A DNA stretch of 64,000 nucleotides from Caulobacteraceae bacterium. GTDB lineage: Bacteria; Pseudomonadota; Alphaproteobacteria; Caulobacterales; Caulobacteraceae. Position 1 is the stretch's first letter. The number at the start of each line of letters is the position of its first letter. This document shows, one piece after another, positions 1-17,102 of this stretch. A program made the position numbers and the translations under genes. Where the stretch lies: assembly GCA_027489335.1 (NCBI GenBank), contig JAIXZX010000012.1, forward strand, positions 62,001-126,000, given 5' to 3'. The notes beneath the pieces were generated by a model that was given only the letters and a program-made list of their open reading frames with translations, made no database searches and was not told where the DNA came from.

Positions 1-2
1 GG

Positions 3-293
3 GCCAGCCGCAACGCCGCCCTGGCCCGTATCCTCATCCCGCTGCAGCACAAGGCCGCCCGCTTCTGGGTCTATTCCATGGGCACAACCACGGAGGAGGA
101 GCGGCTGGCCGACATCTGTCTGCACCGGGCCGTTGCCCAGCGGATCGCCGCCCGGGACGCCGAGGGCGCGCGGGCCGGCATGATCCTGGTGCTCGGCACC
201 ATGCCCCAGACCGTCAAGCGATCCTTGACCGGCCGGGGGGAGGAGGACGCGCCATCCGCGAGCCCGGAGGCGTCAGGAGCGCCTGCAGGTTGA
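3..293 (+). CDS. GntR-family regulator, C-terminal FCD part (5' truncated by window edge)
   Basis: Open from the first bases, so only the last ~96 residues are seen. The visible helices, including an HRAVAQRIAARDAEGARAGM stretch, match the ligand-binding FCD domain of FadR/GntR regulators, where a late His followed by an Ala/Asp-rich helix is typical; the winged-helix DNA-binding part lies outside the window. The tail after about residue 75 is low-complexity (Gly/Glu/Ala/Pro). It reads toward the TonB receptor and the catabolic row that follow, so it is a plausible local regulator of them. Family call is by eye on a fragment, hence moderate confidence. Confidence 0.6.
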   Translation, partial: ASRNAALARILIPLQHKAARFWVYSMGTTTEEERLADICLHRAVAQRIAARDAEGARAGMILVLGTMPQTVKRSLTGRGEEDAPSASPEASGAPAG

Positions 294-498: not shown

Positions 499-2883
499 AT
501 GTCAAAGAGACTCATGTTGGTCGCGGGCGCCTCCCTGTCCGCGCTGATCGCAAGTCCGGGCCTGGCCTGGGCGCAGGTTGATATGGTCGACGAGGTGGTG
601 GTCACGGCCCAGGACCGGACCGGCCTGCTGGAGAAGGACCCCAGCGACAGCGTCTTTGGTCTGGACAAGGCGCTGATCGAAACGCCCCGCTCGGCGAGCT
701 TCGCCAGTGACGTGACGCTGGAGCGTTACGGCATCGAGTCGATCGACGATCTGACGGCCATTTCGCCTGGGACCTATACGGCCAGCTTCTACGGCGTGGC
801 CGGCGCCCTCAACATCCGCGGCACCCTGGCGGAGAACTATTTCCGCGGCTTCAAGCGGATCGAGAACCGCGGCACCTATTCCACCCCCATCGCCAATGCG
901 GCGCAGATCGAGATCGTGCGCGGGCCCCCGACGCCGATCTACGGGGCCGGCAAGGTGGGCGGCATGCTGAACTTCGTGCCCAAGTCCGGCCGCACCGAGG
1001 GCGCCTATATCTCGGAGATCTCCGGACAGGCGGACTTCACGGTGGGCTCGTACAACCGCAAGGAAGCCTCGGGCCAGATCAGCATTCCCCTGAACTTCGG
1101 GGGCCTGGAAGGGGGCCTGAACCTCTATGGCCAGGCGGAGAATTCGGACAGCTTCTATCGCGGGATTTCGCCGCGGCGGGAGATGCTGCAGGCCTCGGTG
1201 GACCTGGAGCTGGGCGGCGGCTGGCGCACGGCGTTCGGCGGTATGGCCTTTCACTCCGACGGGGACGTGCAGACCCCGGGCTGGAACCGCCTGACCCAGG
1301 ACCTGATCGACAATCAGACCTATATCACCGGTCGCGACACCACCCTGGTGGACGCCAACGGGGACGGCAAGCTGACCCCCAACGAGGTCGGCTTCTACCC
1401 CTACGCCTCGGCCCTCTACCTGGCCTATTACGGCTTCCCGCAGAGCGACGCCAACCACACCCTGGATGTGGGCGTGGGGACCACCAAGCTTGATCCGCGG
1501 ACCGTCTATATCAGCGACGCCGACTTCTCGAACTCCTGGACCCGGACGGGCTATTTCGACCTGATCCGCGACTTCGACAACGGCTCGGCGCTGAAGTTTC
1601 AGCTGTTCTATGACGAGCTGAAGAACAAGCGGTTCGTCTCCTACGGCTATCCGGCCATGTTTGACTCCCAGGTGGGCGAGGCGCGGGTCACCTATGACTT
1701 CGACTATGATGTCGGCCTGGTGACGTCCAAGTCGTTTGTCGGCGCCTCGTATCGCGCCTTCGACGGACGGCGGATGGAGAGCTTCAACTCCGGCCTGATC
1801 GCTCTGGACCGGCGGGACATCGCGTTTGGCGCGACGGCGAACGACATCATTGATGACCCCTTCTCGCCCGAGACCTACGGCCTGCAGTGGGAGAACGACA
1901 ACAGCTCCACCTGGAGCCAGGCCGGCGTCTTCGTCACCTCGGACATCTTCATCGGCGAGCGTCTGAACCTGATCCTTGGGGGTCGCTACGACCACTATGA
2001 GGTGGAGGCCGAGGACACGGGCCTCGTCAGCTACCAGCCGCCGGGCAAGTTCGAGGACAGCCAGGGCAAGGGGACCTACTCGGCCTCCCTGACCTATCAG
2101 TTCGACTTCGGCCTGATGCCCTACATCACCTATGCCGAGACCGCGGCGCTGGAGATGAGCCAGGCGGGCGACATCGCGCCTTCGCTGATCCAGCAGGACG
2201 CCTGGCTGTCGGACTCCGACCTGGCCGAGGCCGGGGTGAAGTTCCAGCTTTTGTCGGGCTCGCTGGTGGGCTCGGTGGCCGGCTACCGGCAGAACCGCAC
2301 CCAGCTGACCGGCGGGCCTAACCCCACCGTGCGCGGCACCCGGGCCAAGGGCGTGGAGGTGGAGGTGCGCTACCTCGCCACCGACAATCTGTCCTTCACC
2401 TTCGCCGGCAACACCCAGCGCACCACGGTCAAGGGGCCGGACGCCAGCTTCTCCTACATCCCCTACTATGTGACCGGCGTGGACCCGCTGAACGCCTTCG
2501 GCGGCACCTATGTGGTCTGGGAGTTCTCGAGCCTGCCGGGCCGGGGCGGCGACTATGCCTACACCCTGATCCCGCGCACCGTGCTCAGCCTCTATGGCAG
2601 CTACACCAGCGACGAGTATGACTGGGGCCAGGTGGGCGGCGTCTTCGGGGCGACCCGGGTCAGCGAGACGGCCCAGACGGTGGAAAACCCGATCACCTAT
2701 CCGGAATACACCACGGCCAACCTGTCGCTCTTCTATGCGCGGGGCCCGTTCCACGCCTCGCTCAACGTCGATAACGTGTTCGACGAGCTCTTCTTCACCC
2801 CTGCGGCGGACTCCTACGCCAATCTCGCGGCCATTCCCGGCAAGGGCCGCGAGTGGCGGGTGACCCTGAAGCGGTCGTTCTGA
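499..2883 (+). CDS. TonB-dependent outer-membrane receptor
   Basis: Energy-dependent outer-membrane importer of about 794 aa. The ATG at 499 is chosen because it follows a GAAGAGGG purine run and begins a clear signal peptide cleaved after AWA; an upstream in-frame ATG at 439 would put a charged stretch before it. A TonB-box-like DEVVVTAQ follows, then a plug domain (about residues 45-170, IEIVRGPPTPIYGAGKVGG) and a long beta-barrel ending in KRSF with the usual terminal Phe. There is no STN domain, unlike the second receptor in this window. Residues 285-296 form a perfect EF-hand-type loop (D-x-N-x-D-G-x-L-x-x-x-E). It heads the MFS/RutA-like row, so it probably imports that pathway's substrate; the substrate is unknown. 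Confidence 0.9.
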   Translation: MSKRLMLVAGASLSALIASPGLAWAQVDMVDEVVVTAQDRTGLLEKDPSDSVFGLDKALIETPRSASFASDVTLERYGIESIDDLTAISPGTYTASFYGVAGALNIRGTLAENYFRGFKRIENRGTYSTPIANAAQIEIVRGPPTPIYGAGKVGGMLNFVPKSGRTEGAYISEISGQADFTVGSYNRKEASGQISIPLNFGGLEGGLNLYGQAENSDSFYRGISPRREMLQASVDLELGGGWRTAFGGMAFHSDGDVQTPGWNRLTQDLIDNQTYITGRDTTLVDANGDGKLTPNEVGFYPYASALYLAYYGFPQSDANHTLDVGVGTTKLDPRTVYISDADFSNSWTRTGYFDLIRDFDNGSALKFQLFYDELKNKRFVSYGYPAMFDSQVGEARVTYDFDYDVGLVTSKSFVGASYRAFDGRRMESFNSGLIALDRRDIAFGATANDIIDDPFSPETYGLQWENDNSSTWSQAGVFVTSDIFIGERLNLILGGRYDHYEVEAEDTGLVSYQPPGKFEDSQGKGTYSASLTYQFDFGLMPYITYAETAALEMSQAGDIAPSLIQQDAWLSDSDLAEAGVKFQLLSGSLVGSVAGYRQNRTQLTGGPNPTVRGTRAKGVEVEVRYLATDNLSFTFAGNTQRTTVKGPDASFSYIPYYVTGVDPLNAFGGTYVVWEFSSLPGRGGDYAYTLIPRTVLSLYGSYTSDEYDWGQVGGVFGATRVSETAQTVENPITYPEYTTANLSLFYARGPFHASLNVDNVFDELFFTPAADSYANLAAIPGKGREWRVTLKRSF

Positions 2884-2890
2884 TCTGGCG

Positions 2891-2918
2891 CCCGCCGCCC
2901 CGGACAAGGGGCGGCGGG
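2891..2918 (+). terminator. 11-bp GC hairpin between TonB receptor and MFS gene
   Basis: CCCGCCGCCCC (2891-2901) pairs perfectly with GGGGCGGCGGG (2908-2918) around a 6-nt loop, seven bases after the receptor stop. No T-run follows, so it may be a leaky terminator or an mRNA 3'-end stabiliser separating receptor levels from the downstream genes. Confidence 0.45.
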
Positions 2919-2944
2919 ACCTTAGTCCTTGAGTGGAGGCAGAC

Positions 2945-4255
2945 ATGCCCCTGAGCGAATGGCGTCCCTGGGTGGTTCTCGGCGTCTTCAGCCTGCTCCT
3001 GTTCCTGATCTCGGCGGCGACCTTCTCGTCGCTGGGGGTGGTGCTGCCGGCCATGGTCGCCGACCAGCAATGGAGCTGGGCGCAGGCCGGGCTCGGCTTC
3101 ACCCTGCTGGGCGCCTGCTGCGGCGGCTCGGCCTGGTTCCCGCCGATGATCATCCGCAGGTTCGGGGTCCGGGCGGCCCTGCTCCTGGGCACGGCGGTCA
3201 TGGCGGCGGGTTTCATCTGCCTCTACCTGACCCCCAATGTCTGGATCTACTTCCTGGGCACCGCACTCTGCGGGGTGGCCTATCAGCTGATGGCCCTGAT
3301 CCCCGGCACCCATGTGCTGGCGGCCGTCTTCCAGAAGCGGGCCATGGCCTTTGGCCTCTACTTCACCCTGGGGGGCCTGGGCAGCGTGGCCGGGCCTTGG
3401 ATGGCGCTGGGCGTCATGGAGGCCACCGGCGGCGAATGGCGGCCCTTCTGGGCGTTGCAGGCGGTGGCGGCGCTCGCCATCGGCGTCATCTGCTCGCTGC
3501 TGATCCCGTCCAGCGCCTGGCTGAAGGAGTCCTCGGAGCAGATCGATATCGCGGTGAAGGCCGACGCCGAAGCCGCCGCCGCAGCCCCGGTCCAGGCGCC
3601 CCTGGCGGTCTATCGCACGGTCCACGACTGGACCCTGAAACAGGCCATGGCCACGCCGCAGTTCTACATCCTGGTCTCGGCCTATTTCGTCCACCTGCTC
3701 AGCGGGGTGACGGTCTCCAGCCTCTCGGTGGCCCACCTGTCGGAGCGGGGCGTGGCCGCGGGCATCGCTGCGGGCATGCTGAGCCTGGAGGGGCTGATGG
3801 CCACGGTGGCTCGCCTGGGCGGCGGCTTCATCGGCGACCGGATCGATCCCAAGTGGCTGCTGATGTTCGCCGTCGGCGTCCTGGGGGCGGGCTCCCTGGC
3901 GCTCAGCGTGGCCGACACCTATCCGCTGATGATCATCTATGCGGTGGGCACGGGGATTGGCTTTGGCCTGACGTCTCTGGCGGTCACCATCCTGCTGCTC
4001 AACTACTATGGGCGGAAGAACAACCTGGAGATCTTCTCCACGGTCTGCCTGGTGGGCGCGCTCTCGGCGCTCGGCCCGCTGATCGGCGGCTCCCTGCGCG
4101 ATGCGCTGGGCAGCTTCTCCCCCACCTTCCAGCTCTTCGGCGTCGTCGCCGCCGTGGTGTTCATAGCCTCGCTCTTCATGCGCCCGCCGCAGTGGAAGAC
4201 GCAGGCGAGCGCCCCGGCCGCGCCCCCGGCCGGCCTTGTCAACGATCCCGTCTGA
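2945..4255 (+). CDS. MFS transporter
   Basis: Inner-membrane secondary transporter of 436 aa with about 12 hydrophobic segments. The central loop is charged (about residues 195-220), and a GDRIDPKW-type loop follows, matching the major-facilitator Asp/Arg signature. ATG at 2945 is chosen because GGAGG sits six bases upstream; a GTG twelve bases earlier has none. It lies between the TonB receptor and the RutA-like monooxygenase, so it probably carries the same substrate across the inner membrane. It resembles the monocarboxylate/oxalate-formate type of MFS permeases, but the substrate cannot be read from sequence. Confidence 0.85.
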   Translation: MPLSEWRPWVVLGVFSLLLFLISAATFSSLGVVLPAMVADQQWSWAQAGLGFTLLGACCGGSAWFPPMIIRRFGVRAALLLGTAVMAAGFICLYLTPNVWIYFLGTALCGVAYQLMALIPGTHVLAAVFQKRAMAFGLYFTLGGLGSVAGPWMALGVMEATGGEWRPFWALQAVAALAIGVICSLLIPSSAWLKESSEQIDIAVKADAEAAAAAPVQAPLAVYRTVHDWTLKQAMATPQFYILVSAYFVHLLSGVTVSSLSVAHLSERGVAAGIAAGMLSLEGLMATVARLGGGFIGDRIDPKWLLMFAVGVLGAGSLALSVADTYPLMIIYAVGTGIGFGLTSLAVTILLLNYYGRKNNLEIFSTVCLVGALSALGPLIGGSLRDALGSFSPTFQLFGVVAAVVFIASLFMRPPQWKTQASAPAAPPAGLVNDPV

Positions 4256-4266
4256 GGCGTACCCCC

Positions 4267-5331
4267 ATGTTCCAGAAGCCTTCTCCCAACAAGGAATTCG
4301 GCGTCTTCCTGCCGGTCGCCAACGGCGGCTGGATCATCTCGGAGACCTCGCCGCCGCTCAACGACCTCTGGGCCCAGAACCGGGCCGCGGCCGTCGCCGC
4401 CGACGAGGTCGGCATGGACTTCGTCATGTCCATGGGCAAGTGGCGGGGCTTTGGCGGGACCACCAACCACTGGGGCTCGTCCCTGGAGTCGGTGACCATG
4501 ATGGCCGGCATCGCCGAGGCCACCAAGAATGTGAAGATCTGGGCCACCGTCCATCCGCTGCTGCAGAACCCGGCGGTGACGGCCAAGATGATCTCCACCC
4601 TGGACCACATCAGCGGCGGCCGGGCGGGCCTGAACATCGTGGCCGGCGCCTATCGGGCCGAGTTCGACCAGATGGGCATGTGGGACGACAGCCTCGACCA
4701 TGACGCCCGCTATGCGCTCACCGAGGAATGGACCGCCGTGGTCAAGCGCCTTTGGAAGGAGGAGAGCGTCGATCACGCGGGCAGGTTCTTCACGATGAAG
4801 GACGCCCAATCGAGCCCGAAACCCCTGTCCCGGCCCCGTCCAGACCTGATCTGCGCAGGACAGTCCGACCGGGGCTTCCAGTTCTCGGTGCGCGAGGCCG
4901 ACATCTGCTTCATCGGCGGCCGCACGGCCGAGGAGCGCCGCGACAACAGCCTGCGGGCCAAGAAGGTCGCCGCCGACCTCGGCAAGTCGATCAAGACCTA
5001 CGCCATGTGCACCATCGTCCACGGGGAGACCGACGCCAAGGCCGAGGCCATGGTCGAGCACTACAAGTCCGGAACCGACATGGGCGCCATCCTTGAGATG
5101 CTGCGCAGTTGGGGCGTGCCGGCCGACAAGCTGGACGTGGTGGCCAAGCAGCAGGGCGCCTTCATGACCCAAACCGCCGTGGGCTCGCCGGCCACCTGCG
5201 CCGAGCAGGTGCAGGAGTTCGTGGAGTTCGCCCAGCTGGACGGCCTGATGCTGATCTTCCCCAACTATGCGGAGTGCCTGCAGATGTTCGGCGCCGAGAT
5301 CCTGCCCGGCCTGCGTTCGGCCTTCGCATGA
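4267..5331 (+). CDS. LLM-class flavin-dependent monooxygenase, RutA-like
   Basis: A 354-aa bacterial-luciferase-fold enzyme using reduced FMN and oxygen. It aligns by eye with pyrimidine oxygenase RutA (363 aa in E. coli): an early FGVFLPVANGGWIIS strand, a MGKWRGFGG segment where RutA has KLRGFGG, ISGGRAGLNIVAGAYRAEF, FFTMKDAQSSPKP and LICAGQSDRGFQFS. RutA opens the uracil ring between N3 and C4. The same family includes flavin-N5-oxide enzymes acting on other substrates, so uracil is not assured. Its stop overlaps the start of the RutB-like hydrolase (ATGA), and a RutF-like flavin reductase lies three genes on. There is no rutC, rutD, rutE or rutG here, so a related but different ring-opening role is likely. 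Confidence 0.85.
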   Translation: MFQKPSPNKEFGVFLPVANGGWIISETSPPLNDLWAQNRAAAVAADEVGMDFVMSMGKWRGFGGTTNHWGSSLESVTMMAGIAEATKNVKIWATVHPLLQNPAVTAKMISTLDHISGGRAGLNIVAGAYRAEFDQMGMWDDSLDHDARYALTEEWTAVVKRLWKEESVDHAGRFFTMKDAQSSPKPLSRPRPDLICAGQSDRGFQFSVREADICFIGGRTAEERRDNSLRAKKVAADLGKSIKTYAMCTIVHGETDAKAEAMVEHYKSGTDMGAILEMLRSWGVPADKLDVVAKQQGAFMTQTAVGSPATCAEQVQEFVEFAQLDGLMLIFPNYAECLQMFGAEILPGLRSAFA

Positions 5332-5990
5332 GCGCGCTCGCCGCCCCCGTGCAGGCTGAGGATGGGCTGGCGGCCTGGATCACGCCGGCCCGCACCGCCC
5401 TGGTGATCATCGACATGCAGGTGGATTTCGCAGCGCCCGAAGGCCGTCTTGGCCAATGGGGCGTGGATCTGTCCACCGTGCCGCCTGCCCTGGAGAAGGC
5501 CCAGGCCCTGGCGGATGCGGCCCGCAACGCCGGGGCGCCGGTGGTGTTTGTCGGCCTGTTCACCCGGCCAGAGACCGACTCCGGCGCCTGGCGCGAGCGG
5601 ATGCGCCGGCGCGGCGGCGATCCGGACTCCGATTCCGGGCTTTGTCGGGCCGATGAGGTCGGCTCGGACTGGTATGGCCCCAAGCCCCTGCCGGGCGAGG
5701 CGGTGGTGGAGAAGGCCCGCTATTCCGGCTTCCATGACGCGCCGCTGGACAGCGTTCTGAAGGGGCTTGGCGTCGACACCCTGGTGGTGGCGGGCCTGAC
5801 CACGGAATGCTGCGTGGACTGCACGGTCCGCGACGCCTTCCATCTGGACTATCATGTGTTCGTGGCCAGCGACGCCTGCGCCGCCTACGAGGCCGATGTG
5901 CATGCGGCCTCGCTCAAGGCCTTGGAATTGAACTGCGCGATCCTGGTCGAGGCCGACCAGGTGATCACCGCCTGGGAGGAGGCCGCGTAA
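5328..5990 (+). CDS. Isochorismatase-family cysteine hydrolase, RutB-like
   Basis: A 220-aa alpha/beta hydrolase of the isochorismatase/nicotinamidase superfamily. The catalytic triad is visible: Asp in VIIDMQVDF, Lys in VVEKARYSGF, and Cys in the TTECCVDCTVRDA nucleophile turn. RutB of this family hydrolyses ureidoacrylate formed by RutA, and the SDWYGPKPLPGEAVVEKARY context is RutB-like. The start ATG at 5328 overlaps the monooxygenase stop and the stop overlaps the next ATG (TAATG), showing translational coupling. A role just after the oxygenase step is inferred from order and homology. Confidence 0.85.
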   Translation: MSALAAPVQAEDGLAAWITPARTALVIIDMQVDFAAPEGRLGQWGVDLSTVPPALEKAQALADAARNAGAPVVFVGLFTRPETDSGAWRERMRRRGGDPDSDSGLCRADEVGSDWYGPKPLPGEAVVEKARYSGFHDAPLDSVLKGLGVDTLVVAGLTTECCVDCTVRDAFHLDYHVFVASDACAAYEADVHAASLKALELNCAILVEADQVITAWEEAA

Positions 5991-7372
5991 TGGCCGATGG
6001 ATTTCAACTGCCGGGCGCCCAGGCGCCCTATGCCGTCACCGACGCCGACCGCGCCGCCATCGCCGCGGCGATCAGCGAGACCGAGATTGTCGAGCTGGCC
6101 CTGGAGCTGGGCAATATCCCGAGCCCGGCCGGCCATGAGTTCGCCGCCGGCGAGTTCGTCCACGACTGGATGAAGCGTGAGGGGTTCAACCCCCGCCGGG
6201 TCGGCGCGACGCCGGAGCGCAACAACATCATCGGGACCTATGGCGGGACCGGGGAGGGCAAGAACCTGCTGTTCACAGCCCATCTGGACACCGAGGCGCC
6301 CACCTGGAACCCCGACCTCGACTCCTACAAGTACCGCCCCGAAACCCTGGACAATCCGGAGTGGGAGAAGTGCTGGCTCCAGGACGGGGTCCTCTATGGC
6401 TATCCCATCGCCAACGACCGGGGGCCGATGAGCTGCTTCCTGATCGCGGCCAAGGCCCTGAAGGCCGCGGGCTATGATCTGGCGGGCAAGCTCTATCTGA
6501 CCGCCTGCCCGGGCGAGATCGGGCCTGAGCCCATCGAGGAGCACAGGGGCGTGGCCTATATGGGTAAGGATATCGGCGCCCATTACCTGTTCCACCACGG
6601 GGGCGTGGCGCCCGACTACGCCATCGCCGCCGAGGGCTGCGACTTCGGCCTGACCTGGGTCGGCTGCGGCTATGCGGTGTTCCGGATCCGGCTGTGGGGG
6701 GAGGGGGTGTTCACCCCGCTGCTGACCCAGCCGGAGAAGTCCGGCGACCATCCCAACCCGATCTATCGCCTGGGCGCGCTGACTGACGCCATCCACCAGT
6801 GGAGCCGCCAGTACGAGGCCGACAGCGCCTATGAGAGCGCCGGCGGCGTGGCCCTGCCCAAGGCGCAGATCGCCGCGGTGCGCGGCGGCGTTCCCTACGC
6901 CTTCGGGGCCGGGACGGAGCTCGTGAACCTCTATCTCGAGGTAGGCCTGAACCCCCGCCAGCGCATCGCTGATCTGCAGCACTCCCTGGAACGCATGGTC
7001 CGGGCCGCAGGGCTCGGCGAGGTCGATATCGAGCCGGTCGTGGTCCGCCATGGCTTCGAGGCCGATGCGGGCGAGGTCGCCCCCCTGGTGGGCGCGGTGG
7101 ACGCCGCCACCCGCCTGTCGCTCGGCCATCCGGTGCAGCGGGCGGCGCCGGTCTATTCCAGCATGTGGCGCGACCACAACGTGTTCAACATGCAGCGGAT
7201 TCCGGCCATCACCACCGGCTTCAAGCGCTGGCGGCCGAGCCCGAAGGATCTGACCGACAGCGCGCTGGTCTACGCCCTGACGGCCCTGGCCATCTGTGGC
7301 CGGGCCGAGACTGCGGAGGCGAGATCCGGGCCTGCGCCGGTCTATGGCGACAACCCGTTCGGGAACGCCTGA
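5990..7372 (+). CDS. M20-family metallohydrolase-like protein
   Basis: A 460-aa protein with the M20/Zn-amidohydrolase outline. LLFTAHLDTEAP carries the first His-x-Asp ligand pair, a NDRGPMSC segment the bridging Asp, a CPGEIGPE turn the general-base Glu region, and AEGCDF the fourth ligand region. A dimerisation-like lid follows. Where the family normally has a final His-x-x-x-Glu near the C-terminus, this protein reads GFKRWRPSPKDLTDS, and no canonical His is seen. Either a histidine elsewhere (for example RDHNVF) substitutes or the enzyme is atypical. It is coupled to both neighbours by overlapping stop/start codons (TAATG, TGATG). Likely role: hydrolysis of an amide, carbamoyl or ester intermediate. 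Confidence 0.75.
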   Translation: MADGFQLPGAQAPYAVTDADRAAIAAAISETEIVELALELGNIPSPAGHEFAAGEFVHDWMKREGFNPRRVGATPERNNIIGTYGGTGEGKNLLFTAHLDTEAPTWNPDLDSYKYRPETLDNPEWEKCWLQDGVLYGYPIANDRGPMSCFLIAAKALKAAGYDLAGKLYLTACPGEIGPEPIEEHRGVAYMGKDIGAHYLFHHGGVAPDYAIAAEGCDFGLTWVGCGYAVFRIRLWGEGVFTPLLTQPEKSGDHPNPIYRLGALTDAIHQWSRQYEADSAYESAGGVALPKAQIAAVRGGVPYAFGAGTELVNLYLEVGLNPRQRIADLQHSLERMVRAAGLGEVDIEPVVVRHGFEADAGEVAPLVGAVDAATRLSLGHPVQRAAPVYSSMWRDHNVFNMQRIPAITTGFKRWRPSPKDLTDSALVYALTALAICGRAETAEARSGPAPVYGDNPFGNA

Positions 7373-7890
7373 TGGGCCAGGCGACAACCTTCGGCGATCT
7401 CGAGATCGGCGCGCCCTTTGACGGCCCCGCCTGGCGCGCGGCCATGGGCGCCTTCGCCAGCGGCGTGGTCATCGTGACGACGCAAGGGGAGGACGGCGAG
7501 CCCGTGGGAACCACGGTCAGCGCGTTTTCCTCGGTCTCGCTGGATCCGCCCCTGCTGCTGGTCTGCCTGGATCACAAGAGCCGCACTCGGGCGGCGGTGA
7601 AGCGGTCGGGCCATTTCTGCATCAACATCCTGGCCGCAGGGCAAGGTGGGCTGGCCCGCCTGTTCGCAGGCCCCGGCGCCACCGACCGGTTCGCGGGCGT
7701 GACGATCACGCCGGGCGTCCTGGGCGATCCGCAGATCACCGGCGCCCTGGCCAGCATCGACTGTCGCCTGCACTCCCTGCACGCGGCCGGCGACCACGAC
7801 ATCCTGATCGGCCGGGGCCTGAACATCCAGGCGACCCCCGGCGATCCCCTCATCTACAGCCAGGGCCGGTTCCTGGGCCCAGAGGACTAA
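7372..7890 (+). CDS. Flavin reductase, RutF/HpaC-like
   Basis: A 172-aa NAD(P)H:flavin reductase-like protein. It opens with the family pattern WRAAMGAFASGVVIVTT, followed by GTTVSAFSSVSLDPPLLLVCL and a C-terminal IYSQGRF; GHFCINIL is typical of the flavin-binding core. RutF and HpaC supply reduced flavin to separate monooxygenases, so the RutA-like enzyme is the obvious partner. Its start overlaps the M20 gene stop (TGATG). Confidence 0.88.
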   Translation: MGQATTFGDLEIGAPFDGPAWRAAMGAFASGVVIVTTQGEDGEPVGTTVSAFSSVSLDPPLLLVCLDHKSRTRAAVKRSGHFCINILAAGQGGLARLFAGPGATDRFAGVTITPGVLGDPQITGALASIDCRLHSLHAAGDHDILIGRGLNIQATPGDPLIYSQGRFLGPED

Positions 7891-7902
7891 AGGTCAAAGA
7901 CC

Positions 7903-8715
7903 ATGGGATACGAAGTTCTGGACGTGAAGCCGATGACCCGCCGGATCGGCGCCGAGGTGTTCGGGCTCGATCTCGGCAAGCCGCTCAGCAACCGACAGAC
8001 CGCCGAGCTGCGCGAGGCGCTCGCCAATCATCAGGTGCTGTTCTTCCGCGATCAGGAGATGGACCACGACGCCCACAAGGCGGTCGGCCGCCTGTTTGGC
8101 GAACTGGCCATCCACTCGGCCATCCCCGGCATCGAGGGCCATCCGGAGATCGTCGCCATCCATGCCGACGGCGACTCCAAGTTCGTGGCCGGCGAGAACT
8201 GGCACTCCGACCTGACCTGCGATCCCGAGCCGCCCCTGGGCTCGATCCTCTACATGCCTGTGGTGCCCGAGAGCGGCGGCGACACGGTCTTCGCCTCTAT
8301 GTACGCGGCCTATGACACCCTGTCAGAGCGGATGAAGGTCTATCTGGAGGGGCTGCAGGCGGTCCACGACGCCAACCCGGTCTATCAGAAGCTCTTCCCG
8401 GACCTGGACCGGAAGTACAACCGTTCGGTCCATCCGGTGGTCCGCACCCATCCGGTGACGGGGAAGAAGCTGATCTTCGTCAACCCGTCCTACACCACCC
8501 ACATCGAGGGCCTGGCCGACGAGGAGAGCGCGGCCATCCTCAACTTCCTCTACGTCCACTGCATGAACCCCAACTACCAGGTCCGCTTCCGCTGGCGCCC
8601 CAACTCTGTGGCCTTCTGGGACAACCGCTGCACCTGGCACCAGGCCATCTGGGACTACTTCCCGGACACGCGGTCAGGGTTCCGGGTCACGGTGGCGGGG
8701 GATAAGCCGTTTTGA
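7903..8715 (+). CDS. TauD/TfdA-family Fe(II)/2-oxoglutarate dioxygenase
   Basis: A 270-aa non-heme iron oxygenase. The iron site is visible as His101-x-Asp103 in NWHSDLTC and a distal His246 in CTWHQAIWDY; Arg257 or Arg261 should bind the 2-oxoglutarate carboxylate. These enzymes hydroxylate an unactivated carbon next to a heteroatom and so release sulfite, an amine or an ether partner. Twelve bases separate it from the flavin reductase, with AAAGG upstream of the ATG, so it is the last gene of the RutA-like row. A paralogue lies at 11874-12728. Confidence 0.9.
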   Translation: MGYEVLDVKPMTRRIGAEVFGLDLGKPLSNRQTAELREALANHQVLFFRDQEMDHDAHKAVGRLFGELAIHSAIPGIEGHPEIVAIHADGDSKFVAGENWHSDLTCDPEPPLGSILYMPVVPESGGDTVFASMYAAYDTLSERMKVYLEGLQAVHDANPVYQKLFPDLDRKYNRSVHPVVRTHPVTGKKLIFVNPSYTTHIEGLADEESAAILNFLYVHCMNPNYQVRFRWRPNSVAFWDNRCTWHQAIWDYFPDTRSGFRVTVAGDKPF

Positions 8716-8769
8716 GGCTTGGCTAGAGTCTCCGCGGCTGTTTGCGCGAGCCTAACTATTGGCAGCGCT

Positions 8770-9832: not shown

Positions 9833-9836
9833 TCAC
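9777..9836 (-). pseudogene. Truncated parE-like toxin remnant
   Basis: A GTG at 9834-9836 overlaps the parD stop (GTGA), as in typical parDE operons. It begins IRRTVAFSPEV, like the first strand of ParE toxins. After about 12 codons the sequence switches into the fossil SDR repeat and stops at codon 20. The toxin is therefore not made. The identification rests on the short start motif plus its position after parD. Confidence 0.6.
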
Positions 9837-10108: not shown

Positions 10109-10145
10109 GGCTTGGGACCTTTCGCGCTCCAGCGAAGGCTAACAT

Positions 10146-10168: not shown

Positions 10169-10194
10169 AGCGGGCGCGACGGAGGGGGCTTCAC

Positions 10195-10965: not shown

Positions 10966-10971
10966 GGGCGT

Positions 10972-11120
10972 TCGAACCCCCCGCCGCAGCCTGCGGCGGC
11001 CGCGGCGGGGAGGGGCTGACGGTCAAGGGGATGGCCCGTCAGGTCTTGGGGAAGCCGATGCTGGTGGAGAGGCCGGCCCAGTCGCCGACCTCGGTGGTCA
11101 TCTGGCCCATCTTGCGCATG
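10972..11120. repeat. Direct repeat copy B (intact SDR 3' end and terminator)
   Basis: The parental copy of the repeat at 9653-9799, same orientation about 1.3 kb away. It includes the intergenic hairpin and the last 27 codons of the intact SDR gene. The two copies flank parD plus the GNAT gene. Confidence 0.85.
10979..11010. terminator. Bidirectional hairpin between convergent GNAT and SDR genes
   Basis: CCCCGCCGC (10979-10987) pairs with GCGGCGGGG (11002-11010). It is placed between two convergent genes and conserved in the fossil repeat copy. There is no clear T-run. Confidence 0.5.
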
Positions 11121-11872
11121 GCGTAGTGCAGGGCGTCTTCGCCCAGCAGCAGGTGCAGGGGCGCATCCTCCGCCCCGGCGATCTTCAGGATGGCGGCCGC
11201 AGCCCGGGCCGGATCGCCGCTTTCCTGGCCGGCGTGTTCGGCCAGCAGCTGGGGCGCTATGTGGGCGGTCTGCGCATAATCGGCGATCACCTCGCTGGCG
11301 CGGGTGAGCGAGCGGCCGGCATAGTCGGTGCGCAGGCCGCCGGGCGCCACATTGGTGACCTTGATCCCCAACGGCGCGACTTCCTGGGCCAGGGCCTCGC
11401 CCAGGCCTTCCAGGGCGAACTTGCTGGCGCAGTAGATCCCGGTGCCCGACCAGGCGGCCAGGCCGCTGACCGAGGTGATGTTGATCACGTGGCCTGACCG
11501 GCGAGAGCGCATCCTTGGTAAGGCTGCGCGCAGCACGGCCAGGGGGCCGAAGACATTGGCCTCGAACTGGGCGCGGGCCTCGTCAAGGCTCGTCTCCTCC
11601 ACCGCGCCGGTCAGGCCGTAGCCGGCGTTGTTGACCAGGATGTTGATCCCGGCTGCCAGGGCCTCGGCGCCTGCGACCGCTGCAGCGACCGCGGCCTCAT
11701 CGGTGACATCGGCGACGAAGCCGTGGGCGTTGGGGCCGAGGCTCGCGAAGGCGTCGCGGTCGGCGCCCTTGCGGACCGTGCCGGCCACGATGTCGCCGGC
11801 TTCGAGGGCGGCAAGGGCGAGCGCGCGGCCGAGGCCTGCGCTGACGCCGGTGATGAACCAGGTGCGCGTCAT
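11039..11872 (-). CDS. Short-chain dehydrogenase/reductase (SDR)
   Basis: A 277-aa classical SDR. It shows TGVSAGLGR (cofactor glycine motif, residues ~8-16), NNAGYG, a Ser in NITSVSG and the catalytic YCASK. It oxidises or reduces an alcohol/ketone with NAD(P). The start lies one base after the stop of the TauD-like gene on the same strand, so the two form an operon, divergent from the Rieske/extradiol row. In aromatic pathways such enzymes often act as dihydrodiol or alcohol dehydrogenases; the substrate here is unknown. Its 3' end has been duplicated at 9653-9799. Confidence 0.88.
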   Translation of the reverse strand: MTRTWFITGVSAGLGRALALAALEAGDIVAGTVRKGADRDAFASLGPNAHGFVADVTDEAAVAAAVAGAEALAAGINILVNNAGYGLTGAVEETSLDEARAQFEANVFGPLAVLRAALPRMRSRRSGHVINITSVSGLAAWSGTGIYCASKFALEGLGEALAQEVAPLGIKVTNVAPGGLRTDYAGRSLTRASEVIADYAQTAHIAPQLLAEHAGQESGDPARAAAAILKIAGAEDAPLHLLLGEDALHYAMRKMGQMTTEVGDWAGLSTSIGFPKT

Positions 11873-11873
11873 G

Positions 11874-12728
11874 TCAGTAGGGGGCGTCGCCCTTGGCCCA
11901 CAGGCGGTGCATGGTCCGGAAGTACTTGGTGTCGTCGTAGAGGGTGCCGGTGTGCAGGGTGCAGCGATTGTCCCACATGAGCACGTCGCCCACCTGCCAC
12001 TTGTGGCGGAAGACGAAGGGCTCGCTGGTCATGAATTCCACCAGCTCGTCCACCAGCTCCAGACCCTTGGGGTTCTCCATCCCCACCACCTCGGTCACCG
12101 TGCCGGTCGAGGGCCACAGCGCCTTGCGGCCATCGGCCGGGTGGGTGCGGATCAGGGGATGGACCACGTCGGGGTTGTCGCGCTTGAGCTCTTCCGACAG
12201 CTCCTGGCGGCCGAACTCCCGGGTGGCCATGAAGTGCTGATAGGAGTGGTGGAGGCGAAGGCCGTCCAGCTCCTTCTGGCGCTCAGGGCTGAGCGCGTTC
12301 CAGGCGGCGCAGCCATCGGCCAGCAGGGTGTCGGAGCCCTCGGCCGGGACCTCCACCGCATAGAGCATGGTGCACATGACCGGCTGCGCCTTGTAGGAAT
12401 AGTCGGTGTGCCAGCCGACGCCGTCATTGTGCGCGCCGATCGGTTTGCCATCCACCTCGCGGTTGGAAAGGACGAACACCTTGGGATGGCCGGGCAGGGT
12501 GAACTGCGTCTGGGTGTGGTCCTCGGGCTCGCCGAACAGGGCCACAAAGTCCACCAGCTGTTGAGGGCTCATCTCCTGGCCGCGTAGCAGGATGGCGCCG
12601 TGCCGGTGGAAGGTGTCGACCACGCCAGCCAGGGTTTCAGCGTCGGCGCGGGCGAGGTCCACATCGAGGATCTCGGCGCCGAAGCCGGGCTTCAGCTCGC
12701 GGGTCTTGAGTTGGACGGCGGTGGTCAT
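11874..12728 (-). CDS. TauD/TfdA-family dioxygenase (second copy)
   Basis: A 284-aa Fe(II)/2-oxoglutarate dioxygenase. Ligands His107-x-Asp109 in WHTDYSY and His259 in CTLHTGTLYDD are visible, with Arg271/Arg275 for 2-oxoglutarate. It is closer to the TfdA/alkylsulfatase-like group than to the copy at 7903-8715 (VWNALSPE-type helices, PLIRTHP strand shared by both). ATG at 12728 follows a GGAG; the frame stays open upstream but without a ribosome site. It is one base from the SDR and divergent from the Rieske gene. Confidence 0.9.
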   Translation of the reverse strand: MTTAVQLKTRELKPGFGAEILDVDLARADAETLAGVVDTFHRHGAILLRGQEMSPQQLVDFVALFGEPEDHTQTQFTLPGHPKVFVLSNREVDGKPIGAHNDGVGWHTDYSYKAQPVMCTMLYAVEVPAEGSDTLLADGCAAWNALSPERQKELDGLRLHHSYQHFMATREFGRQELSEELKRDNPDVVHPLIRTHPADGRKALWPSTGTVTEVVGMENPKGLELVDELVEFMTSEPFVFRHKWQVGDVLMWDNRCTLHTGTLYDDTKYFRTMHRLWAKGDAPY

Positions 12729-12991: not shown

Positions 12992-14200
12992 ATGCGCGCG
13001 AACCTCCTGAACGACGCCTTCTTCGACGGGCTGTCCACCTCCATGGAGGGGTTTGAGACCGCCGAGACCCTGCCGCCGGCCTGCTACGTCGACGCCGGCT
13101 TCTACGAGTTCGAGAAGGAGGCGGTGTTCAACCACGAATGGCTCTGCGTGGGCCGCGAGTCCTGGGTGATGACGCCCGGCGACTACTTCACCACCTCGAT
13201 CATCGGCGAGCCCATCGTGGTGGCGCGGACGCGCAAGAACGAGCTGGTGGCCATGAGTTCGGTCTGCCAGCACCGGGCCATGCTGGTGGCCGAGGGCCAT
13301 GGCAACACCCGCGGCTTCGTCTGCCCCTACCACCACTGGACCTATGGCCTGGACGGCAAGCTGGTGAATGCGCCGGCCATGGAGCAGACCTGCGGCTTCG
13401 ACAAGAAGAAGATCGCCCTGCCGAGGTTCAAGGTCGAGGTGTGGCTGGGCTTCGTCTTCGTGAATTTCGATCTGGAGGCCGCCCCGCTGGCGCCGCGCCT
13501 GACCGAGATCGAGGCTGCGCTCGCCGGCTACGACCTTTCCCATGCCGAAGGACCCCGGCCCGATCCCGCCGCCAAGCTCCCCTGGAACTGGAAGGTGATG
13601 TTCGAGAACAACAATGACGGCTACCACGCCAGCCGTCTGCACCAGGGGCCGCTGCACGACTTCGTCCCCAGCGCCCAGTCGGTCTTTCCCGAGGCCGCCG
13701 AAGGCGCCGCCGGATACCTGCGCTTCAACGGCACCCTGCATCCCGACGCCAGCTTCAACGTGACGCAAAAGGCCCTGCTGCCGGTCTTCCCCAAGCTGAC
13801 CGAGACGGATCGCAGCAGGATGACCTTCGCCAACATCCCGCCGACCCTGTCGCTCGTGGTGACCAGCGACATGGTCATCTACCTGATCGTCCGGGCTGAC
13901 GGGCCCGAGACCCACGAGATGGACACCGGCCTGCTCTTTGCGCCCGGCGCCATGCAGGACCCGGCCTTCGAACACAAGCTGGCCATGAACATGGCCGCGG
14001 CCAGCGCCATCATCGCCCAGGACCTGCATGTGGATGGTTTGGTGCAGGCGGGCCTGCGCTCGCGCTTCGCCATCCGTGGCCGCTATTCCTGGCAGGAGGG
14101 CGCCCAGATCGCCTTCAACCGCTGGCTGACCCCGCGCTATCAGCAGACGTGGAAGGCGATGAGCGCCGACGCCCGGCCGCGCGTCGAGGTCCCGGCATGA
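12992..14200 (+). CDS. Rieske non-heme iron oxygenase, alpha subunit type
   Basis: A 402-aa terminal oxygenase. The Rieske [2Fe-2S] ligands are Cys92-x-His94 and Cys111-x-x-His114 (CQHRAM, CPYHHW). The mononuclear iron site is visible as Asp209, His212 and His217 in NNNDGYHASRLH. Such enzymes hydroxylate or demethylate aromatic and N-heterocyclic substrates with electrons from a separate reductase; none is encoded next door. The start ATG at 12992 has GAGGG upstream. It is coupled (ATGA) to the extradiol dioxygenase that follows, consistent with ring hydroxylation followed by ring cleavage. Confidence 0.9.
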   Translation: MRANLLNDAFFDGLSTSMEGFETAETLPPACYVDAGFYEFEKEAVFNHEWLCVGRESWVMTPGDYFTTSIIGEPIVVARTRKNELVAMSSVCQHRAMLVAEGHGNTRGFVCPYHHWTYGLDGKLVNAPAMEQTCGFDKKKIALPRFKVEVWLGFVFVNFDLEAAPLAPRLTEIEAALAGYDLSHAEGPRPDPAAKLPWNWKVMFENNNDGYHASRLHQGPLHDFVPSAQSVFPEAAEGAAGYLRFNGTLHPDASFNVTQKALLPVFPKLTETDRSRMTFANIPPTLSLVVTSDMVIYLIVRADGPETHEMDTGLLFAPGAMQDPAFEHKLAMNMAAASAIIAQDLHVDGLVQAGLRSRFAIRGRYSWQEGAQIAFNRWLTPRYQQTWKAMSADARPRVEVPA

Positions 14201-15012
14201 GCGGGCTTGCTGAACGCCTGCCGGTGGTCTTCTTCGGCCACGGCAGCCCGATGATCGCCATCGAGACCAACGACACCACCGCAGCCTGGGGCGCGATCGG
14301 CGAGTCGATCGGCAAGCCCAAGGCCATCCTGTGCGTCTCGGCCCACTGGCTGACCCGCGGGGTGGGGGTCACCGCCATGGCCCAGCCGCGGACCATCCAC
14401 GACTTCGGCGCCTCGTTTCCGCAGGCTTTGTTCAACGTCCAGTACCCCGCGCCCGGCGATCCGGCCCTGGCGCGGCGCGTGGCCGAGCTGCTAGCGCCGC
14501 TGCCCGTGGCGCAGGACGAGGGCTGGGGTCTGGACCACGGGACCTGGTCGGTGCTGTGCAAGGCCTATCCCAAGGCCGATGTGCCGGTCGTCCAGCTGTC
14601 GATGGACGCCAGCAAGCCGCCGGCCTGGCACTATGAGATGGGCCGCAAGCTCGCCCCCCTGCGGGACGAAGGCGTGCTGATCGTCGCCACCGGCAATATC
14701 GTCCACAACCTGCCGGCCATGGACTGGGGCGCCCGCCACCGCCCGGCCTTCGACTGGGCAGCCGCCTTCAACGATCACATCAAGGCCGCCATCGCCAATG
14801 ACGAGCCGCAGGCCGCGGTGGCCTATGAGGCCTTCGGCGAGGCGGCCAGCCGTTCCGTGCCCACGCCCGACCACTACTGGCCGCTACTCTATGCGCTGGG
14901 CGCCCGGATGCCCGGCGATCGCGCCCTCTTCGGCCCCGACCACATCGAGCACGGCTCGCTCAGCATGACCACGGTGATGCTCGACAGCCGCCCGGCCGCG
15001 CAGGCCGCCTGA
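14197..15012 (+). CDS. Class III extradiol ring-cleavage dioxygenase, DODA/YgiD type
   Basis: A 271-aa LigB-fold enzyme of the DOPA 4,5-dioxygenase group. Conserved histidines appear in VVFFGHGSPM, CVSAHWLTRG, DHGTWSVL and NIVHNL, with the late PTPDHYWPLLYALG block typical of the family. It cleaves catechol-like rings next to the diol using Fe(II) or Zn. The ATG overlaps the Rieske stop (ATGA), so the two are translated together. Together with the SDR it could complete hydroxylation, dehydrogenation and cleavage of a ring; that order is inference. Confidence 0.88.
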   Translation: MSGLAERLPVVFFGHGSPMIAIETNDTTAAWGAIGESIGKPKAILCVSAHWLTRGVGVTAMAQPRTIHDFGASFPQALFNVQYPAPGDPALARRVAELLAPLPVAQDEGWGLDHGTWSVLCKAYPKADVPVVQLSMDASKPPAWHYEMGRKLAPLRDEGVLIVATGNIVHNLPAMDWGARHRPAFDWAAAFNDHIKAAIANDEPQAAVAYEAFGEAASRSVPTPDHYWPLLYALGARMPGDRALFGPDHIEHGSLSMTTVMLDSRPAAQAA

Positions 15013-15038: not shown

Positions 15039-16130
15039 ATGGCCTTCATCTGCGAGCCGACCGAGACCCGGGCCGACACCCTGCCGGGCGCCCTGCACAC
15101 CCTGAACGCCACGTCCAAGACCGTGCACTGGGGCTACTTCGATCCCGCCCGGGGCCCGGCCTTACGGATCAAGAGCGGCGACCTGGTGCAGGCCGAGGCC
15201 ATCACCCACCATGCCGGCGATGATCCCGAGCTGATGATGGACGAGGCGGTCACCGCCATTTTCCGCGAGATTCCCGAGGCTGACCGCAATCCCGGCGTCC
15301 ACATCATGACCGGCCCCATCCATGTGGAGGGCGCCGAACCTGGCGACATGCTGGAGGTGCGCTATCTGCGCATGGTCCCGCGCTGCAATTACGGCTCCAA
15401 CCTCGCGGCCAACTGGGGCCACCTCTATGACGAGTTCGACCAGAAGGAGCGGGTGACCATCTATGAGCTGGACCCCAACGCCCAGACCGCCAGCGCGCTC
15501 TATGCCTACGACTTCCCGGGCAAGTATCTGACGCCGGGGACCATCACCAACTGCCCGGTCTGTGATCGCCAGGGCGCGCTGCCCGGGGTCCGCGTGCCCG
15601 TGCGGCCCCACCTGGGAACGGCCGGCGTCGCGCCCAATGTGAACGGCCGGGTCAGCACGATCCCGCCGGGCCTGCATGGGGGCAATATCGACAACTGGCG
15701 CATCGGCGCCGGGGCGACCATGTACTATCCGGTGCAGGTGGACGGCGCCCTGTTCTCCATCGGTGATCCCCATGTCAGCCAAGGCGACGGCGAGATCAGC
15801 GGCACGGCCATTGAGGCCTCGCTGAACGTCCTGATGCAGATCGTCCTGCGCAAGGACTTCACCTTCCCCTCGCCGCTTCTGGAGACGCCAAACTGGTGGA
15901 TTGTCCATGGGTTCGATCCGGATCTTAACCGGGCGATGAAGAACGCGTCGCTCGACATGCTGGGCCTGCTCACCGAGCAGCAAGGCCTGTCGCGCAACGA
16001 CGCCTATTCCCTGATGAGCGTGGCCGCCGACTTCTCCATCACCCAGGTGGTGGATGGCACCCAGGGCATCCATGTGCGCATCCCCCGCGGCATCTTCCCC
16101 GCCAAGGGCAGCGTGCGTGACCCGACCTAG
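15039..16130 (+). CDS. Acetamidase/formamidase family hydrolase, cytoplasmic
   Basis: A 363-aa FmdA/AmdA-family amidohydrolase. Family blocks: THHAGDDPELMMDEAV, MTGPIHVEGAEPGDMLEV, GVAPN...STIPPGLHGGNIDN, and GDPHVSQGDGEISGTAIE, which holds metal-binding His/Asp/Glu residues. It has no signal peptide, unlike the paralogue at 46280-47377. AAGGA lies eight bases before the ATG, 26 bases after the extradiol gene. These enzymes release ammonia from short amides, which fits a nitrogenous substrate for the module. Confidence 0.9.
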   Translation: MAFICEPTETRADTLPGALHTLNATSKTVHWGYFDPARGPALRIKSGDLVQAEAITHHAGDDPELMMDEAVTAIFREIPEADRNPGVHIMTGPIHVEGAEPGDMLEVRYLRMVPRCNYGSNLAANWGHLYDEFDQKERVTIYELDPNAQTASALYAYDFPGKYLTPGTITNCPVCDRQGALPGVRVPVRPHLGTAGVAPNVNGRVSTIPPGLHGGNIDNWRIGAGATMYYPVQVDGALFSIGDPHVSQGDGEISGTAIEASLNVLMQIVLRKDFTFPSPLLETPNWWIVHGFDPDLNRAMKNASLDMLGLLTEQQGLSRNDAYSLMSVAADFSITQVVDGTQGIHVRIPRGIFPAKGSVRDPT

Positions 16131-16139
16131 GCCACGACC

Positions 16140-17102
16140 TTGAAGGCCTGGCAGTTCACCACCGACGCCTATCTGAAGCCGCAGCGTCGGGACGCCTGGC
16201 GCGAGGCCATGGAGCGGCTGCGCCTGCCGGTCGGCGACCTGCCGGCAGAAGGCGCTTTCCATGCCCAGGTCTCCAGCCTGACGTCGCCCATGGGGGTGGA
16301 GTTTTCGGTGGTGGCCTCGACGCCGCAGGAGATTTCCGGCCGCAATCCCCACCAGCCCGCCGCCATCTGGATGGCGGTGCTGCTGGAGGGGGAGGCGACC
16401 CTGCTGGACGGCGCGCGCGAGATTCCCATGGCGGCCGGCGACATCGTCTATGGCCCGACCGGCCAGGCCGCGGGCCTTCGCCTGGAGAGCCGGTTCCGCC
16501 TGCTGTTCATCACCGCGCCGCGGGTGGCCCTGGACCACCGGCTGCTGGCGCCTTCGGCCCTTCGGCTGGGGCATCTGGCGACAGGGCAGGGGATTAATCA
16601 TGTCTTTTCAGGCTTGTTGCGGGCGACAGCTGAATCACTGGATGAACTGACGTCGGATCAGCTGCGCCCCGTCGAACTGGCGCTCACCGAATTCCTGGTG
16701 GCCTGCCTGGCCCAGGATGGCGGCCCGGCGGCTCGTGGCGGGGCGGAAGGGGCACGCGCGGTCCAGATGCACCGGGTCCGCCAGACCATCGAGGTCCTGC
16801 TGGCCGAACCGGAGCTGACCCTGCGCCGGGTGGCCGACGAGGACGGGGTCTCGCCGCGTTATCTGCAGAAGTTGTTCGCCGGCCAGGGGCAGAGCTTCAC
16901 CGGCTATGTGCGCGGCCGCAGGCTGGAGCGCTGCCGGGCCGACCTCGCCAGTCCCGCCTGCGCCCAGCTTTCGATCTCCGAAATCTGCTTCCGCTGGGGG
17001 TTCAACGGGTCGGCCCATTTCAGCCGCGCCTTCCGCAGCGCCTATGGCCAGTCGCCCCGGGAATACCGCCGCGCCGCCATCGGTGAGGCCGCCGCGGACT
17101 AG
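16140..17102 (+). CDS. AraC-family transcriptional regulator
   Basis: A 320-aa regulator with an N-terminal cupin-like sensing domain (about residues 40-180) and a C-terminal double HTH. LTLRRVADEDGVSPRYLQKL is the first HTH, and ISEICFRWGFNGSAHFSRAF with the SPREYRR end is the second. The start is TTG at 16140, nine bases after the amidase stop, without a strong ribosome site. As the last gene of the Rieske/extradiol/amidase row it probably activates that row; the inducer is unknown. Confidence 0.9.
   Translation: MKAWQFTTDAYLKPQRRDAWREAMERLRLPVGDLPAEGAFHAQVSSLTSPMGVEFSVVASTPQEISGRNPHQPAAIWMAVLLEGEATLLDGAREIPMAAGDIVYGPTGQAAGLRLESRFRLLFITAPRVALDHRLLAPSALRLGHLATGQGINHVFSGLLRATAESLDELTSDQLRPVELALTEFLVACLAQDGGPAARGGAEGARAVQMHRVRQTIEVLLAEPELTLRRVADEDGVSPRYLQKLFAGQGQSFTGYVRGRRLERCRADLASPACAQLSISEICFRWGFNGSAHFSRAFRSAYGQSPREYRRAAIGEAAAD

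Follow-up and report, generated by a model that had tools for sequence, protein, structure and literature searches.

A conserved, partly plasmid-borne gene island around a RutA-like oxygenase in a Caulobacteraceae genome, with a possible role in flavin catabolism

Gene content and extent of the island

The window analyzed here, a stretch of 64,000 nucleotides (nt) from contig JAIXZX010000012.1 of a Caulobacteraceae bacterium (assembly GCA_027489335.1), opens on a gene island built around a RutA-like oxygenase of the LLM family (Table 1). Seven genes follow one another on the forward strand and code for a TonB-dependent receptor, an MFS carrier, the LLM oxygenase, a RutB-like hydrolase, an M20-type hydrolase, a flavin reductase and a TauD-type dioxygenase. 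The one-direction row with overlapping codons that had been described from the letters of the window (the sequence-only reading) was confirmed, with overlaps of 4 nt between the LLM and RutB-like genes and of 1 nt each between RutB-like and M20 and between M20 and reductase. The boundaries given to the unit did not hold, since the seven-gene row is one end of a larger island of ~17 genes that starts upstream of the window, with GntR, RutE-family and VOC genes, and ends at ~18,020. The genes from 11039 to 18020 (SDR, second TauD enzyme, Rieske oxygenase, LigB-type dioxygenase, amidase, AraC-type regulator and ribokinase) are parts of the same system.

Table 1. Genes of the island. Positions are those of the window, unless given for locus L137, which covers the upstream region; the last column gives the loci with the gene among the 80 found with the M20 protein, unless another total is stated.
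Feature	Position	Strand	Matches and remarks	Loci
VOC gene	L137:10114-10605 (upstream, outside the window)	-	78% to the VOC of the Kozakia island	43/80
RutE-family gene	L137:10837-11424 (upstream, outside the window)		298 bits, cut-off 152	9/90
GntR/FCD regulator, 3' end	1..293	+	Pfam FCD in the window piece; GntR and FCD in the complete gene (L137:11466-12293)	
TonB-dependent receptor	499..2883	+	Pfam plug and barrel	46/80
MFS carrier	2945..4255	+	weak NCBIfam matches to lactate, monocarboxylate and oxalate/formate carriers	68/80
RutA-like LLM oxygenase	4267..5331	+	256 bits to the RutA equivalog, cut-off 498	73/80
RutB-like cysteine hydrolase, isochorismatase fold	5328..5990	+	98 bits to RutB, cut-off 378	75/80
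M20-type hydrolase, proposed aromatic aminohydrolase	5990..7372	+	solved relative 5-nitroanthranilate aminohydrolase, E 5e-87	query family of the 80
Flavin reductase	7372..7890	+	Pfam Flavin_Reduct; best NCBIfam HsaB, 136 bits; RutF, 104 bits, cut-off 255	41/80
TauD-type Fe/2-oxoglutarate dioxygenase 1	7903..8715	+		62/80
Open reading frame	8770-9513		between TauD 1 and SDR; no Pfam match	
GNAT gene	near 10144-10965		between TauD 1 and SDR	5/80
Short-chain dehydrogenase (SDR)	11039..11872	-		50/80
TauD-type dioxygenase 2	11874..12728	-		28/80
Rieske oxygenase alpha subunit	12992..14200	+		44/80; 17/299 genomes of the order, all with M20
LigB/YgiD-type extradiol dioxygenase	14197..15012	+	4,5-DOPA extradiol dioxygenase, 329 bits, cut-off 233; nearest solved enzyme YgiD	44/80
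Acetamidase/formamidase family hydrolase	15039..16130	+	Pfam FmdA_AmdA	50/80
AraC-type regulator	16140..17102	+		50/80
Ribokinase	17109..18020	-	TIGR02152, 271 bits, cut-off 300	27/91

Relationship to the uracil (Rut) pathway

RutA is the nearest solved enzyme to the window LLM (216 bits, the next one reaching 111), and the E. coli protein is 36% identical to it. The RutA, RutB and RutF cut-offs were, however, all missed (Table 1). The RutB-like protein is 32% identical to E. coli RutB. The aligned rows, 85 with E. coli RutB counted in, retain RutB residues Asp24 (84 rows), Lys133 (85) and Cys166 (84), which we take to be the catalytic ones. In two sets of trees, the first of which left out sequences of 330 amino acids or less, the RutA proteins of genuine rut operons formed a clade of their own (6/6, support of 1.0 and 100) with the LLMs of the window type outside it, the placement that the sequence-only reading had expected of a new pathway. 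Whether the window-type LLMs are themselves a single clade depends on method and rooting, as FastTree joined them (92/92, support of 0.97; 93/93 and 0.96 in a second tree) and IQ-TREE did not (support of 66).

PMC10005588 describes roles for a Thr and an Asn in O2 binding by RutA and a Trp that borders the cavity of the other face. With the residue numbering of that work mapped onto E. coli RutA by an offset of 19, the O2-site residues Thr105 and Asn134 were found in 92 of 92 window-type LLMs, and Trp139 was replaced by Ala or Ser in the same 92 (by Ala in the window protein). By score and tree placement, the window LLM is distinct from the RutA that acts on uracil.

The remaining rut genes gave a mixed picture. 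The absence of rutC, rutD, rutE and rutG had been read from the window; for RutC and RutG it extends to the whole genome, which is 94.9% complete (the best RutC match scored 42 bits against a cut-off of 169, so there is no true RutC, and RutG gave no match at E 1e-5), and for RutD it applies to the window and L137, the only places searched. RutE had seemed absent because the edge of the window cuts the unit. A homologue 55% identical to E. coli RutE, and over the family cut-off, lies 0.6 kb upstream of the window on the same contig, together with the GntR/FCD and VOC genes. There was no other RutA-family match in the genome. The outcome named beforehand as fatal to a separate pathway, a grouping with RutA together with rut genes elsewhere in the genome, therefore did not occur. 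In addition, one Caulobacter-type genome (G042) carries the full system as well as a genuine rut operon, and two others (G161 and G116) combine such an operon with the LLM and RutB-like pair of this system, in their case with no M20. Identities of these operons to E. coli are 68-69% for RutA, 73-74% for RutB, 70-71% for RutC and 45% for RutD. Compared to the E. coli Rut system, the island shares the RutA-like oxygenase, the RutB-like hydrolase, the flavin reductase, the RutE homologue upstream and the O2-site Thr and Asn, and differs by the M20 and aromatic-ring enzymes, the lack of true RutC and RutG in the genome and the change of Trp139 to Ala or Ser.

The M20 enzyme as a proposed replacement for Rid and RutD

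The sole solved relative of the M20 protein is 5-nitroanthranilate aminohydrolase (PDB 5k8m-5k8p; 296 bits over residues 33-439 of 460), an enzyme that turns an aromatic amine beside a carboxylate into a hydroxyl. The family label comes from this relative and from weak NCBIfam matches (32 bits at best), with no match in Pfam. The solved enzyme reads NCKGPM and RDTN where the window protein has NDRGPM and RDHN, so the metal site may differ between the two.

A useful comparison was provided by plasmids. There were 12 plasmid matches to the LLM, four of the window type (L133, L134, L135 and L157), five used for comparison and hereafter called Rid type, and three (H14-H16) that were left out. The five Rid-type loci (two from Rhizobium and one each from Pantoea, a Paracoccaceae strain and Cupriavidus) all carry Rid-family and RutD-like genes near an LLM that is 42-45% identical to that of the window, and none has a RutB-like gene or an M20 of the window kind. 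Conversely, Rid or RutD-like genes were found in 0 of 90 window-type loci at the limits used. The Rid-type LLMs group with RutA in the trees (11/11, support of 100 in IQ-TREE and 0.90 in FastTree). From free uracil, steps of the RutA and RutB type lead to aminoacrylate, an enamine that Rid can hydrolyze, whereas a uracil fused to an aromatic ring would yield an aromatic amine and thus need an aminohydrolase. This chemistry, together with the gene content, suggests that in the window type the M20 stands in for Rid and RutD, as an aromatic amine beside a carboxylate would require such an enzyme.

Conservation and distribution

An alignment search of the genome collection with the M20 protein gave 154 relatives, and the best 80 loci were kept, some of them on short contigs. 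Eleven others were added to give a set of 91 loci, 17 below 18 kb and 74 of 18 kb or more, which includes four same-genome pairs (L046/L093, L050/L102, L077/L088 and L072/L092). Locus counts rest on tblastn; counts of families based on gene calls are lower bounds, since lower-G+C loci were poorly called (for example, L100, L122, L125 and L128). A RutB-like gene was present in 75 of the 80 loci and an LLM in 73, which argues that the gene order is not due to chance and agrees with the conserved synteny that the sequence-only reading had proposed to look for. Nine core genes (LLM, RutB-like, M20, TauD, Rieske, LigB, amidase, SDR and VOC) occur all together in 33 of the 91 loci. Among the best 80 of the 154 relatives, the nearest with a genus name were Phenylobacterium records, and by record title the loci also come from Caulobacter, Hyphomonas, Parvibaculum, Sphingomonas, Novosphingobium, Sphingobium, Altericroceibacterium, Komagataeibacter and Aliiglaciecola. 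The set is also present on a plasmid of Kozakia, where IS5-family elements lie on its flanks and within it. Across the class, 3 of 385 evenly sampled genomes had the M20, that of the window being one of them.

Within 299 genomes of the order Caulobacterales, the components were strictly nested, with the Rieske gene (17 genomes; limit of E 1e-110) always within the genomes with M20 (24; E 1e-80) and these within those with a cluster-type LLM (29; E 1e-60). The LLM search had matched 31 genomes, and two of them (G022 and G061) were removed because their sole match, at 36-39%, was a true RutA. The nesting persists where the parts are unlinked, lying ~43 kb apart in G066, 38 kb apart in G141 and on separate contigs in G101, and this speaks for one pathway, even if the pattern is not a set of independent events, given that the 299 genomes are related. 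All seven of the 299 genomes that have M20 and lack the Rieske gene (G021, G060, G080, G185, G200, G223 and G259; loci L045, L046, L047 and L052) carry two M20s, the second being 55-64% to that of the window where measured and located directly after the LLM in the four loci examined.

Two plasmids, from Paraburkholderia graminis (L133) and, among IS elements, from Acinetobacter baumannii (L134), hold a minimal module of MFS, LLM, RutB-like, M20 and reductase genes plus a helix-turn-helix regulator; here the first half of the island travels by itself. Signs of the opposite process were seen in G221, whose LLM is split over two frames (L051:8955-10060), and in the M20 matches of G206 and G221, which have an in-frame stop; the system may be decaying in their genus.

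Proposed pathway

We propose that the island encodes a Rut-like catabolism of a compound in which a pyrimidinedione is fused to an aromatic ring. The likeliest such compound is a flavin, either riboflavin or lumichrome, a reading to which we assign a probability of roughly 45%. For the LLM, RutB-like and M20 trio by itself, the broader assignment as an "aromatic Rut" acting on some fused pyrimidine is probable. Flavins are pointed to because they unite a pyrimidinedione in a fused system with an aromatic ring, for which Rieske and extradiol enzymes are needed, and with a side chain that yields ribose.

The substrate would be taken up by the TonB receptor and the MFS carrier. A TauD enzyme would hydroxylate the ribityl carbon on the nitrogen, and the ribose so freed would be phosphorylated by the ribokinase. 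The LLM, supplied with reduced flavin mononucleotide (FMNH2) by the reductase, would then split the amide bond of the pyrimidinedione to give a ureido-carboxylate, and the RutB-like hydrolase would take off the ureido group as CO2 and NH3, leaving an aromatic amine next to a carboxylate. As this amine cannot leave by the enamine step of a Rid-type protein (RutC), the M20 would be needed to displace it with water in the manner of 5-nitroanthranilate aminohydrolase. Finally, the Rieske oxygenase, the extradiol dioxygenase and the amidase would convert the remaining quinoxaline through a catechol to a ring-cleavage product, possibly closing to a pyrone, and an oxamide-type fragment. The roles of TauD, amidase, SDR, VOC and RutE are guesses. 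The sequence-only reading had foreseen a ring opening separate from that of uracil, followed by trimming through hydrolysis and hydroxylation; the former is borne out by the comparative evidence, and the latter turned out too small, as the system also includes the enzymes for the aromatic ring and, at some of the loci, the ribokinase.

The ribokinase is the sole match of its family in the genome (none other at E 1e-30) and falls just short of its cut-off. An alignment of the window protein with six relatives showed Asn14, Asp16, Gly41, Gly42, Lys43, Asn46, Glu143 and Asp255 to be kept, apart from Asn14 and Asp16 in one relative whose called start was short; these presumably correspond to the positions that bind ribose and act in catalysis in E. 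coli RbsK. Of the 91 loci, 27 have this gene adjoining the set, and 26 of these are among the 74 loci that reach 18 kb. Its place varies, with five or more arrangements: it follows AraC in Phenylobacterium and the amidase in a Caulobacteraceae metagenome-assembled genome (MAG; L123), and it precedes SDR-GntR in a Caulobacter MAG (L075), the LLM in sphingomonads and the SDR in Hyphomonas (L050).

In kind, the island puts familiar enzyme families to use in a variation on known chemistry, and we did not find it described as a pathway, conserved and partly plasmid borne as it is, in the open-licence literature searched. If the proposal is true, it names genes for the breakdown of vitamin B2, or a like compound, in soil and water bacteria, shows that RutA-type ring opening reaches beyond uracil to ring-fused pyrimidines and provides the M20 aromatic aminohydrolases with a natural role. 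Even with another fused pyrimidine as the substrate, no earlier description of such a conserved island with a clear chemical order turned up in these searches.

Comparison with known flavin degradation

PMC12746152 describes a reconstituted lumichrome pathway of Nocardioides simplex in which LumH opens the pyrimidine, LumI (24 kDa) removes urea and LumM (52 kDa) turns the amine into a hydroxyl, followed by the Rieske system LumABCD and then the extradiol dioxygenase LumE. The order of reactions is the one we propose for the island, a likeness that concerns the reactions; a Rieske oxygenase and an extradiol dioxygenase, matching those of the lum pathway by type, are encoded in the window, and each occurs in 44 of the 80 loci. 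The ring opening differs, since in that account LumH (80 kDa) acts by hydrolysis and the LLM of the island would act by oxidation. The later steps would differ too, because the 17 window products scanned (3 to 19611) include no cytochrome P450, thiamine pyrophosphate-dependent decarboxylase or xanthine oxidase, and thus no counterpart of the P450 LumU, LumKL or LumJ.

The same source mentions the older route of Pseudomonas RF (Stadtman), in which ribose is removed and urea and oxalamide (oxamide) are formed; it states that the enzymes of this route were never reconstituted and that the strain was not kept. For each of the products named in it (urea, oxamide, ribose, quinoxalinedione and carboxypyrone) the island has a candidate enzyme, such as the RutB-like hydrolase for urea, the amidase for oxamide and TauD with the ribokinase for ribose. 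The island is possibly the gene set of the unassigned riboflavin route of Stadtman. More generally, proteobacterial flavin degradation in which a flavin-dependent oxygenase of RutA type opens the pyrimidine of flavin itself by oxidation, the M20 performs an aromatic nucleophilic deamination and the Rieske, extradiol and amidase enzymes finish the process, with genes that are those of Pseudomonas RF or a close variant, is a view that we hold tentatively. If it is true, the Pseudomonas RF route, to whose steps enzymes were never assigned, becomes testable in cultured Caulobacter, among whose island-bearing strains are sp. Root655 (L068) and BK020 (L063).

Alternative explanations

Several observations weigh against flavins as the substrate. 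Of the 74 loci that are at least 18 kb long, 48 gave no ribokinase, including the Kozakia island and every Caulobacter-titled locus except L075. The RutE-like gene is given no step in the proposed pathway. A comparison of the window, L137, L053 and L113 with Rfam yielded a tRNA as the sole match and no flavin mononucleotide riboswitch, and no riboflavin lyase was recognized beside the island. The Rieske reductase of the Kozakia type was not found in the window or L137 and appeared in only 1 of 89 other window-type loci (L125). The enzymes lacking among the scanned products, mentioned above, belong here as well. Five genomes have the LLM and RutB-like genes without M20, seven of the 299 Caulobacterales genomes have two M20s and no Rieske gene, and between Kozakia and the window the SDR, LigB, Rieske, TauD, amidase and VOC proteins are 55-78% alike, in contrast to only 43-47% for LLM, RutB-like and M20. 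Lastly, the loss of Trp139 was ruled out as proof of a bigger substrate, since the position is Ser in 5 of 5 Rid-type LLMs, and the change indicates an altered pocket and not its size.

The same enzyme logic might apply to another fused pyrimidine, such as a pterin or lumazine (perhaps from folate), a deazaflavin (F420 or FO), a 7-deazapurine nucleoside or a quinazolinedione, with the LLM, RutB-like and M20 enzymes acting as proposed and a pyrazine, quinoline, pyrrole or benzene as the remaining ring. We consider this unlikely. The trio alone suits any ring-fused uracil, and the annotated flanks of the minimal module on its two plasmids contain no aromatic module. A TRZ/deaminase-like amidohydrolase, of the kind that a 2-amino pterin or purine would require, was seen in at least five sphingomonad-type loci (L110, L112, L120, L121 and L124; one of them scanned), another point that does not favor flavins; however, it was seen in those five only, and its scores stayed below every curated cut-off. 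Pterins lack a carbocycle on which a Rieske and extradiol pair could act and release no ribose, and F420 is far rarer than flavin. A single-ring pyrimidine or small N-heterocycle (a substituted uracil, the thiamin pyrimidine, a pyridine or an imidazole) might instead be opened by the LLM, in which case the M20 would be an ordinary amidase or deacylase and the aromatic module would serve a second compound imported with it. The adjacency of related LLMs to TenA and deaminase genes on Rhizobium and Paracoccaceae plasmids, suggestive of the thiamin pyrimidine, and the five genomes without M20 can be cited in its favor. We nevertheless hold it to be rather improbable, given that the TenA loci use the Rid and RutD-like genes missing from the 90 window-type loci and that Rieske, M20 and LLM are strictly nested even when unlinked.

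The LLM could also catalyze a different kind of reaction on an aromatic alkaloid from plants or microbes, such as N-hydroxylation or the cleavage of a C-S or C-C bond, its likeness to RutA reflecting ancestry only. The range of its solved relatives shows how diverse LLM enzymes are catalytically, and TauD, Rieske, extradiol and amidase enzymes would suit many aromatic N-compounds, but among solved enzymes RutA stands far ahead in similarity and a RutB-like partner with its catalytic residues kept nearly always adjoins the LLM, which makes this explanation quite doubtful. A divergent yet ordinary uracil operon, as the joint presence of RutA-, RutB-, RutE- and RutF-like genes might suggest, is very improbable and largely refuted already by the missed cut-offs, the separate clade, the missing RutC and RutG and the genuine rut operons in genomes that carry this LLM.

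Other observations

Some loci carry variations on the genes described above. In the Hyphomonas locus L050, a small 2Fe-2S ferredoxin gene (L050:9262-9582) stands directly before the LLM and is a possible candidate for the electron carrier of the Rieske oxygenase. In L108 (11479-13794), an AraC-type regulator and an acetamidase/formamidase-like domain are fused in a single open frame, and such fusions, of ~700-790 amino acids where called, were present in 21 of 91 loci (L108, L049, L051, L103, L105, L106, L110, L113-L115, L117, L120-L122, L124 and L127-L132); the product is possibly a regulator whose sensor is derived from an enzyme. The window itself has a second acetamidase/formamidase-like open reading frame on the reverse strand (46280-47377), 32% to the amidase of the Kozakia island and adjoining an open reading frame of 1049 amino acids. 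Two further LLM-family genes follow directly after the TauD gene in L091 (12205-14240); the second was ruled out as a riboflavin lyase, MoxC/YtnJ being nearer (218 versus 121 bits).

The Rid-type plasmids deserve mention in their own right. Those of Rhizobium daejeonense (L153), the Paracoccaceae strain (L156) and Rhizobium sp. ACO-34A (L158) combine a RutA-like LLM with Rid, an alpha/beta hydrolase, TenA (thiaminase II) and a TRZ-type deaminase, as well as an M20 of the ArgE/DapE kind, which one record annotates as a formylaminopyrimidine deformylase. This gene content looks like a breakdown of the pyrimidine half of thiamin, a pathway of which we found no report in the literature searched. 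The Cupriavidus necator plasmid pENH92 (L154:9644-23188) associates a RutA-like LLM, Rid and RutD-like genes with a Rieske oxygenase and its PDR/VanB reductase, a formaldehyde dehydrogenase and ribA/ribBA, perhaps for the breakdown of an N-methylated pyrimidine.

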